Shown here in pieces: positions 58,501-62,432 of a stretch of DNA of 64,000 bases. Position 1 is the first letter of the stretch. Each line of letters starts with the position of its first letter. The stretch is from Faecalibacterium sp. I4-1-79 (GTDB lineage: Bacteria > Bacillota > Clostridia > Oscillospirales > Ruminococcaceae), in the NCBI RefSeq assembly GCF_023347235.1, contig NZ_CP094467.1:868001-932000 (forward strand), in the 5' to 3' direction. The notes beneath the pieces are model-generated. The model saw nothing but the letters and a program-made list of their open reading frames with translations, had not been told where the DNA came from and made no database searches. Both the position numbers and the translations under genes were made by a program.

Positions 58501-58758
58501 TCAAACAATGATAACGTGAACAGCACGCTCGTAATCAACTTTGCGAACGTATATTGTGTAGAGCGTTTGATAATTGACCTTTTGAAATGCAGTTCCGGCT
58601 CTTTCACGGGTTCCCATTGAAAACAGAGACGGTGATGATAAATCGCGTGCTTTTGTTCGATAGGCTATTCCTGCCTTTTCTAAAAGCGATGTGTATTTTT
58701 GGTATTGAGATTGATTCGAGCAAACAACCAGCTCTTTTTGATTGAAAAATGGCAACAT
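58501..58758 (-). CDS. Small DUF2007-like protein
   Basis: An 85-residue protein: ELVVCSNQSQYQKYTSLLEKAGIAYRTKARDL then YTIYVRKVDYERAVHVI resembles DUF2007-type small signal-transducing proteins (beta-alpha-beta ACT-like). The start at 58758 follows TTAGGAGTTTCT. It follows the interrupted membrane gene after 17 bases. Function unknown. Confidence 0.65.
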   Translation of the reverse strand: MLPFFNQKELVVCSNQSQYQKYTSLLEKAGIAYRTKARDLSSPSLFSMGTRERAGTAFQKVNYQTLYTIYVRKVDYERAVHVIIV

Positions 58759-58775
58759 AGAAACTCCTAAGCATC

Positions 58776-58964
58776 TCACTTCTTGTCGAAAAATTTCAGC
58801 AGAAGTCCGATTATCAATGCAACGCCGCAGACCAATATAACCAGAATGGTTTGTGATGACAAGACGAAAAGCGGTTGAGGAAGCAGTCCCAGCATTCCAC
58901 CAATAATAAATAAAAGCAATATTAGAATCACAATTGCAAATAGGATTGGCTTCTATTTTTTCAT
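58776..58964 (-). pseudogene. Small membrane protein gene with in-frame TAG at codon 4
   Basis: On the minus strand GGGAG is followed 9 bases later by ATG AAA AAA TAG, and the same frame then stays open for 58 codons: KPILFAIVILILLLFIIGGM, LGLLPQPLFVLSSQTILVIL, VCGVALIIGLLLKFFDKK, a clear two-helix membrane protein. It is either a gene killed by a nonsense mutation (for example from an ATA codon) or is expressed from an internal start or by readthrough. Confidence 0.6.
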
Positions 58965-59105
58965 GCTGACACACTCCCTTCTTCAAGAAACAAACTATTA
59001 TACGCGAACTCTTATAGATGCATTGAAATCATCTGCATCTTATTGTTACTATACATACAATAGAAGATTTCGTCCATGCTTTTGTACTAACATGGATAAA
59101 ATCTG

Positions 59106-60428
59106 TCACGAAATCGGAGTGAACGGTATATCAGCAGTGAACTGGAACCACCCATTTTCATAGAACATCGTATACTCTCCACTGTATTTTTCAAGAATCA
59201 GCCGGATGTTCGCAAGTCCAAAACCATGCAGCTGTGGTTCTGGTTTTGTAGTTGGAATGGAACCATTTATAATTACAACCGGTTCCGATGTGTTTCGGAC
59301 AGAGACAAAAAAGTCTTGCTGTGCAACGGCCATGACATGAATCGCTTTATCGCCCTTATCATACTGCTGACACGCTTCAATGGCATTATCCAAAAGGTTT
59401 GATAGAAGCACTACCATATCGGAGACATCAAATGGAAGATTTGATAGATCATTCACTTCAAAATCAATGCTGATCTTCTTTTGAGTTGCTTCGGCAGCTT
59501 TTGTATTGAAAAGTGCGTCCAAGATGGGATGATGTGTGTTGACAAGGAATAGCCGATCAGTTTGCTGTTCGGTGATTTTTTCAAGATATTCTTCAGCGGC
59601 AGAATACTCTTGATTCTTCATCAATCGATTTAGGATATTCAGGTGCGCCCGGAAATCGTGAACTTTTTTCCTTTGGGCAGAATAAAGTTCGCTTGCCGAA
59701 GTCATGTTTTTCGATTGTAGCTGAATCTGCTGGTTAAGCATCAATAATTGTTCTCTTTCCGATGCTGCATACTCCATTTGCTCCAATAAAAAGAGGACTG
59801 CGACGTTTGAAATAAAAATGAGAATACAACAGCCAGCAGAAACAAACTCTTCTATATTATGACCGCTTGTAACGTAAAGTAGGATCACAAGCATTACAAA
59901 CGATGCGCATGGGAATAGAAAGTACAGTATCAGCTGCGAATGTTGAGCATCGCTTCTGGGTCTGTTGCCCATACGCTGAAGCATCATTTTGCGAAATAGC
60001 GCAATAATAAATAATTCGGATGAATAATAAGAGATTCCATAGATTAGGGATAACGTCTTGTCGGCTTGAAACGTCTGAGCATCCATCCCACAAACCGATG
60101 TTGCAAGCATTCCGACTGCAAAAGATAAACTATAAGTCAAGAGATATTCTACAACGATAAGAAATAATAAAAACTTTCCTGAGATATTCTCATATAGAGT
60201 TCTGGCAACAATAAAGCAGGATAGTAGAATCAAGAGAATTTTGACGATTTGGTTTCGATTTAAGGCAATAACACTGAATTCAATGGATGCATACATTAAA
60301 ATAGTTTGAACTATTACACCGACAAGGAATCTATGACCTTTCCAACGGTGCGAAGCAAAAGCGTCTAAAAACAGACATACGCAGACTGAATCTATGATTG
60401 TGTAAACCAAACTGATCAAAGCATCCAT
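59106..60428 (-). CDS. GHKL sensor histidine kinase (AgrC/ComD type)
   Basis: A 440-residue kinase. The first 215 residues hold six or seven transmembrane helices, the layout of peptide-pheromone receptors such as AgrC, ComD and BlpH. The cytoplasmic part has His257 in VHDFRAHLNILNRLM, LLDNAIEACQ, and GFGLANIRLILEKY. The 13-base overlap with the response regulator couples translation. No AgrB/AgrD is present; the nearest peptide gene is the GG-terminated micropeptide at 61947. Confidence 0.92.
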   Translation of the reverse strand: MDALISLVYTIIDSVCVCLFLDAFASHRWKGHRFLVGVIVQTILMYASIEFSVIALNRNQIVKILLILLSCFIVARTLYENISGKFLLFLIVVEYLLTYSLSFAVGMLATSVCGMDAQTFQADKTLSLIYGISYYSSELFIIALFRKMMLQRMGNRPRSDAQHSQLILYFLFPCASFVMLVILLYVTSGHNIEEFVSAGCCILIFISNVAVLFLLEQMEYAASEREQLLMLNQQIQLQSKNMTSASELYSAQRKKVHDFRAHLNILNRLMKNQEYSAAEEYLEKITEQQTDRLFLVNTHHPILDALFNTKAAEATQKKISIDFEVNDLSNLPFDVSDMVVLLSNLLDNAIEACQQYDKGDKAIHVMAVAQQDFFVSVRNTSEPVVIINGSIPTTKPEPQLHGFGLANIRLILEKYSGEYTMFYENGWFQFTADIPFTPIS

Positions 60429-61132
60429 CTACTTTTACCTCGCCAATGTAAATATTTCTGTTTTAGCTCACTATAATTCTTTTCGCTTGGAGCCAGACAA
60501 AGACCACCGCGCAATTGGACTTTATTGTATTGAAAGATTTCGACATAGTGCATATTGACAAGATAGCTTTTTTGAATACGAAGGAAACCGAGTGGCTCGA
60601 TTTTTTCGGATAGTTCCGTTATGTTGCCGTAAAATTGGTATGCTGGGCGTTTTTCGTCCAACAAGTGCATAACAATGATTCTTCGATGAGATTCTAAATA
60701 CAGAATGTCATTTACAGGTACATCGATAATTTCAGAGTTGATTGAAATTGTGACAAGCTGTTTCCGTCGAAGTACTTCTTGGACAGCTGAATCAAAGTAG
60801 GAATCAAGTTTAGCAGAGAGATCTGCTTTTAGTAAGTATCGAAAGGCTTGAACCTCAAATCCCTCTGGAGCATACTGAATGAAATTCGTAATGAAGATAA
60901 TCACAATATTTTCATTTTCTGCTCGTAACTTTCTGGCAAGCTCAATTCCATTTGTTTCGCCCATATCAATATCCAGAAGCGCAATATCATAAGGACGAGA
61001 AAAGTCTATTTGACTTGGCTGCGAAACTCCATAAAATCTTGATGCTACATGCGTTTCCTCACTTTTCTTTTTGAGTTCTTCAATAATAGAATCAACAATC
61101 TGCTGGTCATCATCACAAACCAAGACATTCAT
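60416..61132 (-). CDS. LytTR response regulator (AgrA/ComE type)
   Basis: A 238-residue regulator. Receiver domain with CDDDQQI near the start and phospho-acceptor Asp54 in IALLDIDMGETNGIEL; conserved Lys in FRYLLKADL; LytTR DNA-binding domain from about 135 (ISINSEIIDVPVNDILYLESHRRIIVMHL, FLRIQKSYLVNMHYVEIF). The start at 61132 follows GGAGGGATTTC. LytTR proteins bind pairs of 9-bp direct repeats 21 bp apart; such a pair lies at 61764-61792. Confidence 0.92.
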   Translation of the reverse strand: MNVLVCDDDQQIVDSIIEELKKKSEETHVASRFYGVSQPSQIDFSRPYDIALLDIDMGETNGIELARKLRAENENIVIIFITNFIQYAPEGFEVQAFRYLLKADLSAKLDSYFDSAVQEVLRRKQLVTISINSEIIDVPVNDILYLESHRRIIVMHLLDEKRPAYQFYGNITELSEKIEPLGFLRIQKSYLVNMHYVEIFQYNKVQLRGGLCLAPSEKNYSELKQKYLHWRGKSRWML

Positions 61133-61207
61133 TTTGAAATCCCTCCATTGCACATGGGAATGCTTTTTATCACACAACATACAGCCCTGCTCCTCACAAG
61201 TCAATTG

Positions 61208-61264
61208 AATTTCAATATAATCGAACATTATATGTAGTATAGTACGATTATGTTGAAATTTCAA
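61208..61264. promoter_or_regulatory. Divergent promoter with 16-bp inverted-repeat operator
   Basis: AATTTCAATATAATCG (61208-61223) and CGATTATGTTGAAATT (61245-61260) are inverted copies with one mismatch, 21 bases apart. The right arm overlaps the leftward promoter: on the minus strand TTGAAA (61264-61259), 17-base spacer, TATACT (61241-61236). On the plus strand TTGAAT (61205-61210) and TTATAT (61228-61233), 17 apart, could serve the XRE gene. The XRE protein is the natural candidate to bind. Confidence 0.7.
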
Positions 61265-61299
61265 ATAGTACACTTTATATAGGATAGGAGTGTACGGGA

Positions 61300-61656
61300 A
61301 TGGAGCATTATTTAGGAGAAAAACTAAAAAAGCTGAGAGAAAGTCGTGGCTGGACGCAGGCGGATTTGGCTAAACGGTTAAATAAGGCTGTATCCACAGC
61401 CAGTGGATATGAAAGTGATGCACATGCAATTCCGTTGGATGTTCTTGCAAGCATTTCATCCTTATTTAGCATTTCAACAGATGAACTCCTAGGACTGGAT
61501 GCGCCAGAAGTACTATCTCTTTCTGGATTGACTGGTGCGCAAAAGAAAACTTTAATTAAACTCCGTAATGAATTGCTTTCGCCAAGCCGAAAAGGAAATG
61601 ATCTTTCGCCGCAGCAGATGGAAATTCTTCATGACATAATAAAAGCCTTCGGTTAA
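61300..61656 (+). CDS. XRE-family regulator divergent from the two-component system
   Basis: A 118-residue protein. HTH: LGEKLKKLRESRGWTQADLAKRLNKAVSTASGYESDAHAIPLDVLASISSLFSISTDELLGLD, then a C-terminal helical region LTGAQKKTLIKLRNELLSPSRKGN. It shares an intergenic region, with a large palindrome, with the LytTR regulator, and probably represses it and itself. Confidence 0.9.
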   Translation: MEHYLGEKLKKLRESRGWTQADLAKRLNKAVSTASGYESDAHAIPLDVLASISSLFSISTDELLGLDAPEVLSLSGLTGAQKKTLIKLRNELLSPSRKGNDLSPQQMEILHDIIKAFG

Positions 61657-61700
61657 CGATTGATTTTCAATACAGTACGGGTGCAAGAATATTACTTAGA

Positions 61701-61740
61701 TATGACCCTCAATGCTGGATGCCCAGTGTTGAGGGTCATA
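61701..61740. terminator. Terminator after XRE gene
   Basis: TATGACCCTCAA and TTGAGGGTCATA form a perfect 12-bp stem, with a further CTGG/CCAG stem inside; TTATTTG follows. Confidence 0.8.
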
Positions 61741-61763
61741 TTATTTGCAACCACACCGATTTC

Positions 61764-61792
61764 GTTACAAATTTTCTCTCTGTTGTTACAAA
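61764..61792 (+). promoter_or_regulatory. 21-bp-spaced direct repeats, candidate LytTR site
   Basis: GTTACAAA occurs at 61764-61771 and 61785-61792, exactly 21 bp start to start (two helical turns). It lies 14 bases upstream of a -35 element. LytTR regulators of bacteriocin operons bind direct repeats with this spacing. The repeat does not match the general LytTR consensus at every position, so assignment to the neighbouring regulator is inference. Confidence 0.55.
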
Positions 61793-61806
61793 ATCATGGA
61801 CAGGGA

Positions 61807-61836
61807 TTGATTCTTGTGCTTTGATATTTTTAATAC
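61807..61836 (+). promoter_or_regulatory. Promoter for the micropeptide operon
   Basis: TTGATT (61807-61812), 18-base spacer, TAATAC (61831-61836), 111 bases before the peptide start. The non-optimal spacer and -10 fit an activator-dependent promoter. Confidence 0.55.
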
Positions 61837-61946
61837 CTAAAGCACGAATATGAGATTGATATGAGGTGATCCCAGTGCAGAACTTAAAATATTAACCGAT
61901 TCCTCGAATGCAGGTATGATGTTTTACAAAAAGGAGATGACTCAAC

Positions 61947-62021
61947 ATGACCGCAACTAAAAGATTGGTATCCACACCTTTTTTAACCGAAAAGGATTAT
62001 TATCAAGCGGTTGGTGGTTAA
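61947..62021 (+). CDS. 24-residue peptide ending in a double-glycine leader motif
   Basis: Codons from ATG at 61947, 6 bases after AAGGAGATGA, give MTATKRLVSTPFLTEKDYYQ-AVGG and a TAA. Counting back from the final Gly-Gly, Leu is at -12, Thr -11, Asp -8, Tyr -7, Ala -4, Val -3: the spacing of double-glycine leader peptides of class II bacteriocins and ComC-type pheromones. No core peptide follows. It may be a bacteriocin gene truncated exactly at the processing site, or a free leader used as a signal or decoy. It is followed after 12 bases by a membrane protein gene. Confidence 0.6.
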   Translation: MTATKRLVSTPFLTEKDYYQAVGG

Positions 62022-62033
62022 AAGGTATAGAAA

Positions 62034-62432
62034 ATGAAGAAAGCTCTATATACATTTCTCCTGTGGGATTTGTTTCTATTTGCTACGGGCTTAAACGACC
62101 TTGTTTTTTATAGAAATGTTACATTGTCGGAAAGCGCAACGGTGGTAGATTGGGCGCAACCAGCTTTTGCAAGTGTTACTTTATTTCTGATTTTGCTTTC
62201 AATTTACTATGGATTGCACCAACTCCTCTTTGGGAAGAATTTTTATTTGAAGTTGGAAGTTAAGCAGGAAGATATTGATAAAATGCGAGATTTCATTTTC
62301 ATTTTATTAAAAAAGGAAAAAATTGATCCAGATAAGTTGCATCAGCACTTAAAGTATCTGATAATTGCTGAAGTCGTTTTGTGGTGCATTTTCATTATCT
62401 ATCTTTTTGTATCAAGGTCTACAGCAATCTAA
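62034..62432 (+). CDS. Small membrane protein, possible immunity protein
   Basis: A 132-residue protein with three transmembrane segments (ALYTFLLWDLFLFATGLNDLVF, FASVTLFLILLSIYYGLHQLLF, LIIAEVVLWCIFIIYLFV) and a charged loop VKQEDIDKMRDFIFILLKKEKIDPDKLHQ. Not recognised. It is co-transcribed with the 24-residue peptide, a position in which bacteriocin operons carry the immunity gene. It is too small and lacks the motifs for AgrB. Confidence 0.7.
   Translation: MKKALYTFLLWDLFLFATGLNDLVFYRNVTLSESATVVDWAQPAFASVTLFLILLSIYYGLHQLLFGKNFYLKLEVKQEDIDKMRDFIFILLKKEKIDPDKLHQHLKYLIIAEVVLWCIFIIYLFVSRSTAI

Follow-up and report, generated by a model that had tools for sequence, protein, structure and literature searches.

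A candidate receiver-only Agr locus with an orphan immunity-like gene in Faecalibacterium sp. I4-1-79

Faecalibacterium is among the most abundant bacteria of the human gut, and the locus described here lies on the single contig of 3.23 Mb that makes up the genome of Faecalibacterium sp. I4-1-79. The window, meaning the whole stretch of 64,000 nucleotides that was analysed, covers positions 868001 to 932000 of this contig; towards its right end, an Agr-type sensor kinase and response regulator stand beside a divergent regulator gene, a promoter site with direct repeats, a short open reading frame (ORF) and a small membrane protein. The analysis is based throughout on sequence, with Pfam, NCBIfam, PADLOC and the Protein Data Bank (PDB) serving as family and structure references, and with 31 Faecalibacterium genomes, one per species, as the comparison set for the genus. 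The locus is composed of the following features:

59106–60428, minus strand: AgrC-like polytopic GHKL histidine kinase, 440 residues, intact (Pfam PF14501, 1.3e-21)
60416–61132, minus strand: AgrA-like LytTR response regulator, 238 residues, intact (PF00072, 1.1e-13; PF04397, 2.3e-13; synteny by tblastn)
61208–61260, no strand: large palindrome between the regulator and XRE genes, putative XRE operator (inverted-repeat scan)
61300–61656, plus strand: XRE (HTH_3) regulator, 118 residues, divergent from agrCA (Pfam HTH_3, 1.4e-12)
61700–61741, no strand: terminator-like hairpin downstream of the XRE gene (inverted repeat), partly common to other promoter copies when aligned with L022 and L024
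61761–61800, plus strand: LytTR-type promoter site with half-sites TTCGTTACA and TTGTTACAA 21 bp apart (repeat and pattern scans)
61863–61895, plus strand: leader micro-ORF, GTG CAG, stop after 6 codons (10-nt match to the anti-Shine-Dalgarno complement)
61947–62021, plus strand: apparent 24-codon remnant, in which the beginning of a secreted-protein gene continues in frame into the final 16 codons of a toxin-like gene (DNA and protein alignment)
62034–62432, plus strand: membrane protein, 132 residues, intact, putative immunity protein, following the toxin-like tail and with copies in the genus

Judged by its sequence, the GHKL/LytTR pair is an AgrC/AgrA pair. The kinase has six hydrophobic segments by hydropathy, as a polytopic AgrC should, and its ORF overlaps that of the regulator by 13 bases (60416–60428), as had been stated in an earlier note made from the letters of this DNA. 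The peptide-signalling two-component system proposed in the same note is borne out by the GHKL and LytTR Pfam matches and by the presence of agrBD in related loci. With the known Agr system (agrBDCA; Staphylococcus, Clostridia) the locus shares the polytopic GHKL kinase, the LytTR regulator and two direct promoter half-sites, and its relatives carry AgrB and AgrD-like genes, whereas neither AgrB nor AgrD is present at the locus itself; since AgrB is absent, it is classed as the receiver half and not as a complete Agr system. It further differs from Agr in its divergent XRE gene with the palindrome, and in its targets, which appear to be exchangeable cassettes of secreted or membrane proteins.

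Kinase orthologues of at least 95% identity occur in this genome and in G303, G308, G309 and G311, and the nine further kinase loci that were compared, a second locus of the same genome among them, are 39–54% identical. This second locus is a complete agr set. Because the sensor part of the window kinase is 97% identical to that of locus L088 and only 41% to that of the genome's own second AgrC (the catalytic part being 96% identical to the former versus 62% to the latter), the kinase most likely answers a peptide from other strains. In the proposed mechanism, AgrC would sense a cyclic AgrD-type peptide of such strains and phosphorylate AgrA.

The missing genes can be placed on the far side of the kinase, where two further features are found:

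59073–59112, minus strand: second LytTR-type site, which overlaps the stop codon of the kinase and marks the spot from which agrBD is missing
58776–58964, minus strand: gene for a 62-residue membrane peptide, behind the second LytTR-type site, broken by an early stop (intact copy in L082)

In a locus whose kinase is 96% identical, agrB lies together with an AgrD-like gene between two binding sites behind the kinase. An AgrB homologue follows directly after the post-kinase site in all four loci tested (PF04647: L057, 2.5e-17; L088, 1e-18; L121, 2.4e-24; L122, 2.1e-20), and the small ORFs of the same four loci have the common core PxCxGWxYQ; they gave no Pfam AgrD match, and we take them to be AgrD-like from their position, size and core and from the known features of AgrD. 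Alignment of the post-kinase regions revealed that the 917 bp between the two sites of L088, agrBD included, are missing from L086, which has an additional gap in its downstream cargo, and that the left breakpoint is identical in the window, L085 and L087 while the right side differs. In the window and in three other genomes the breakpoints fall inside the repeated binding site. AgrB of this clade (at least 36% identity) was found in five of the 31 genomes, namely G303, G298, G297, G317 and, at its second locus, the genome studied here; it was not found in G308 and G309, which gave only a 24% AgrB of another system, or in G311 (none at E 0.001). These comparisons argue that agrBD was removed by a deletion running from one copy of the binding site to another. 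The absence of AgrB noted earlier therefore stands for the window, and the minimal design that had been read from it does not. As a separate observation, locus L089 (G298:C1:694403-695650) carries agrB (PF04647, 3.9e-19) and an AgrD-like gene, both apparently intact, beside a kinase reduced to its C-terminal part and fused to an XRE tail, with no regulator found in 16 kb; it is possibly a 'talk-only' locus, the product of reciprocal decay.

On the other side of the pair, the repeat GTTACAAA is found at 61764 and again at 61785, a spacing of exactly 21 bp. The site can be aligned with promoters at two places elsewhere on the chromosome and with a further one on the kinase's other flank. The pattern occurs at four places in this genome and at 19 sites in nine of the 31 congeneric genomes, against 0 matches of the reversed pattern, and so exceeds chance. 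Since the genome-wide pattern was itself derived from such sites, a spacing scan is the more independent test: half-site weights from eight sites were applied to chosen flanks of nine two-component loci at spacings of 12 to 40. The mean best-pair score was 9.4 at spacing 21 versus at most 4.5 at other spacings, and eight region-strands (one being a training site) exceeded a score of 14 at spacing 21 versus at most three at any other; for L125, L126 and L127, pairs at 21 bp scored lower (13.1, 13.3 and 10.3) than those at other spacings. The direct repeats of the earlier note are thus real, and distant orthologous loci likewise favour a spacing of 21 bp. The half-sites of Agr in S. aureus have the same 21-bp spacing. 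AgrA is described as binding two direct repeats upstream of P2/P3 (PMC4227749). At 61761–61800, AgrA would bind the two half-sites, 21 bp apart, and turn on a short transcript that would carry only the stub of a toxin-like gene and the intact small membrane protein.

This promoter is part of a common block of 87–208 nt (71–87% identity) that stands ahead of differing cargo genes, mostly for secreted proteins or small membrane peptides. A leader element with a sequence near GGAGGTGATTCC(A/G)(A/G)TGCAG, a strong ribosome-binding site and a tiny ORF of few codons, recurs; it was seen at 61863–61895 and in L022, L024, L003, L078, L079, L083, L002, L012, L014 and L029. The micro-ORF lies downstream of most distinct promoter sites, and also at some promoterless truncated toxin-like copies; it is not found in L080/L081 and is missing or only degenerate in L066/L082. 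Two further ideas about this arrangement were discarded. A −1 frameshift linking the micro-ORF to the frame of the toxin-like tail fails as the frame is open in L002 and closed in the window, and as the leader also precedes unrelated genes; a constant N-terminus of the polymorphic-toxin (Rhs-like) kind fails as what the copies have in common is DNA of the promoter and leader and no protein sequence.

The short ORF behind the leader ends in two glycines, as previously observed, and had been taken for a 24-residue peptide with a double-glycine leader. The ORF stands; the leader does not, since the two glycines are the C-terminal end of a secreted protein of the Sec type, one with full-length homologues. 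Because the 5' part of the region (61929–61967) is 85% identical over 39 nt to the opening of another secreted-protein gene, found in L025, and the 3' part (61990–62021) is 84% identical over 32 nt to toxin-like tails in L014 and others, a deletion seems to have joined two genes in frame and left these 24 codons. In a genus-wide search, DNA encoding DYYQA(I/V)GG was found at 12 sites in eight of the 31 genomes. A full-length ORF of 254 residues is present at two of them, G310 and G321; at the other ten, counted from the first start codon, the ORF has 14 residues (eight sites), 24 (the window) or 39. The 12 sites amount to five distinct contexts, one of them full-length (95% identity over 600-odd nt). 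As an observation of its own, L025 (G000:C1:735000-749000) holds an array of promoterless cargo remnants with two leader elements, and includes both the secreted-protein gene start that resembles the 5' part of the fusion and a truncated toxin-like tail with a membrane protein.

That the 24-residue peptide is a processed double-glycine signal controlling the operon, as in the ComDE/BlpRH/PlnBC systems invoked earlier, is accordingly very improbable. In favour of it, the peptide is preceded by a good ribosome-binding site and lies behind the LytTR site, and the genome does encode one C39-type exporter (PF03412); this ORF lies at 1.97 Mb, about 1.04 Mb away, so that the reported lack of an ABC exporter/protease is true of the locus and not of the genome. 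Against such a signal, a stop codon follows the two glycines and leaves no core peptide, the peptide's end belongs to a secreted protein, and the expected conservation of the micropeptide was not seen across the genus, the 24-residue form being confined to the window among the 12 tail sites.

The full-length protein is of the secreted kind: in L037 the 254-residue ORF has an N-terminal hydrophobic segment resembling a signal peptide (hydropathy, residues 10–28 of the 248-residue form). A full-length relative of 241 residues, 27–29% identical, occurs in G165, from another genus of the same family, and the C-terminal half of the protein in a contig of Bacterium 1xD42-67. When 394 genomes drawn from the order were searched, 11 had matches, two with Faecalibacterium tails (G000, G171) and nine in the N-terminal region only (profile positions 3–120, E 2.9e-4 to 9.9e-4), which were taken as chance matches of signal peptides; the genomes with full-length copies (G165, G310, G321) were presumably outside this draw. 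Nothing was found in the plasmids searched. At the intact locus of G310, agrA and agrC on the plus strand are followed by divergent agrB, an AgrD-like ORF, the toxin-like gene and a membrane protein on the minus strand (GHKL, 4.4e-16; LytTR, 8.8e-19; AgrB, 1.1e-32), and G321 carries the same locus, 99.9% identical over 5601 nt, hence one haplotype. A 21-bp-spaced repeat with 7/9 matches lies between agrB and agrA of G310; it is suggestive only, as other spacings also reach 7 matches.

At all 12 tail sites an ORF of 129–132 residues starts within 120 nt, and this position, together with its retention where the toxin-like gene is lost, suggests that the 62034–62432 product is an immunity protein. 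The bacteriocin or immunity connection of the earlier note is in this sense probable. Its three-helix membrane protein is confirmed as an ORF and a membrane protein, and not in its helices: the hydropathy scan gave two segments above threshold, at residues 37–55 and 109–127, while three were seen in its counterpart next to the full-length toxin-like gene. The family of the window protein was found at 10 loci in nine of the 31 genomes, the nine other copies being 68–74% identical; against four of these, dN/dS is 0.11–0.15. Outside the genus there were three weak matches (E 0.005–0.008), and none was found in the genome contigs, viral contigs, plasmids and phages searched. The protein gave no Pfam and no PADLOC match, one NCBIfam match far below the cut-off and two PDB matches (E 0.67 and 0.73).

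It was also considered whether the membrane protein helps secretion, is a toxin in its own right or belongs to the Agr regulon as an unrelated small effector. We regard this as rather unlikely, given that a protein of about 130 residues stands directly behind the 3' end of the toxin-like gene at each of the 12 sites, the intact ones of G310 and G321 included. Several facts speak for it: the membrane protein belongs to no annotated family, the two tail-adjoining membrane-protein families have no detectable homology, and most copies stand without a tail (8 of the 10 family loci have none within 1200 nt upstream, with 241 nt readable in L003). The link of the window protein to the toxin consequently rests on two remnant loci, the two of ten with a toxin-like tail upstream, as none of the ten adjoins a full toxin-like gene.

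Taken together, the evidence leads us to favour, with moderate confidence, an Agr receiver without a signal of its own that drives an orphan immunity-like gene. The membrane protein would protect the cell when neighbours make the secreted toxin; the deletion of agrBD would have run from one binding-site copy to the other, and that of the toxin-like gene would have spared its 3' end, both losses being visible by comparison with other loci and their order being, like the direction of regulation, something we infer. Such a cell may listen to its neighbours and arm itself without attacking. Besides the scarcity of tails beside the membrane-protein family and the lack of homology between the two families, the following points weigh against this reading. 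Six of the nine genomes with the repeat pattern have a close kinase, that of G298 being truncated, and the other three (G171, G310, G321) have only distant ones (30–34%). The intact locus of G310 comes from another Agr clade and has weak repeats of its own. The membrane-protein comparison runs at dS 0.95–1.65, near saturation. For the toxin-like protein no Pfam or NCBIfam family, PADLOC model or PDB chain was matched, so toxicity is a presumed activity. Membership in the geobacillin-26 family was rejected, as no similarity was found to alicyclobacillin 24, the sole member compared (BLASTP E 0.31; hhalign probability 0.5%).

The same locus could be read as decaying and no longer functional: agrBD, the toxin-like gene and the neighbouring peptide gene are lost or broken, and the remainder would be on its way out. 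In favour of this are three separate losses in some 3.3 kb, the transposon-type genes that border the locus on the right and the further degraded G298, with its truncated kinase and no regulator found. It is nevertheless a minor possibility, because kinase, regulator and membrane protein are all intact, because dN/dS among the agrBD-less loci is 0.05–0.15 for the kinase and 0.05–0.27 across both kinase and regulator (one regulator pair resting on two changes), and because the agrBD-less form recurs in four of the five genomes with a kinase of at least 95% identity.

The proposed receiver locus has counterparts elsewhere. As described in PMC4739721, pneumococcal blp 'cheaters' have lost signal and toxin output while keeping receptor and immunity, and they respond to a neighbour's peptide by making immunity; the window locus resembles them in outcome. 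However, Blp uses double-glycine leader peptides and an ABC transporter, with the disruption in blpA (PMC4739721), whereas here the protein is of the Sec type, the signal of the Agr type, and agrBD is missing. The class III bacteriocins geobacillin 26 and alicyclobacillin 24 are described as secreted proteins of about 240–250 residues with a Sec signal peptide and no double-glycine leader (PMC13176240), and the full-length toxin-like protein is like the geobacillin-26 type in size and predicted Sec route. Orphan immunity genes of T7SS and T6SS toxins are likewise described as kept without their toxin; in the window the secretion route differs, and quorum-sensing control is probable. Among the matches listed, no open-licence paper dealt, by title and abstract start, with an Agr system or a bacteriocin regulon of Faecalibacterium. 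If the proposal is true, Faecalibacterium strains would eavesdrop on one another's signals and thereby time their protection against a secreted protein without a known family; its predictions (a cognate cyclic peptide, a binding site, a toxin and a protector) are all open to testing.

More tentatively, and with some doubt, the Agr regulon may serve as a swap platform, in which exchangeable cargo is placed behind a constant block (LytTR site, weak −10 and leader micro-ORF) and social variants would arise by recombination between site copies. The binding site would then be both the switch and the evolutionary breakage point, and the variants would comprise talker-listener-attackers (G310 type), listen-only or immune-only forms (the window) and talk-only forms (G298, agrBD intact, kinase truncated and regulator gone).

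As for the XRE gene, the divergent arrangement and the large palindrome reported earlier are both confirmed. The arms, 61208–61226 and 61242–61260, are 19 nt each and 89% complementary. An XRE gene is present in 5 of the 14 loci in which kinase and regulator both occur (not counting the distant pair in L056, and with L125 having just 757 nt before the regulator), and the palindrome is kept in four of these five, namely the window, L057, L088 and L121; the scan did not find it in XRE-bearing L123, and it is absent from XRE-less L085, L087 and L120. It is therefore a probable XRE operator, through which the XRE protein probably acts as a repressor of its own gene and/or agrCA. Since the window XRE is 90% identical to that of the genome's own second locus (L057, 7765–8118) but the kinases only 53%, an exchange of XRE between the two loci is suggested.

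The borders of the locus are formed by the following genes:

58501–58773, minus strand: ORF of about 85–91 residues, with no Pfam family above cut-off, recurring behind different cargo genes in L083 and L088
62580–64000, minus strand: DUF6061, TnpV and DUF4368 genes (Pfam), bordering the locus on the right

A DUF3847 gene lies on the side of the locus opposite to the DUF6061, TnpV and DUF4368 genes, which points to a mobile-element setting.

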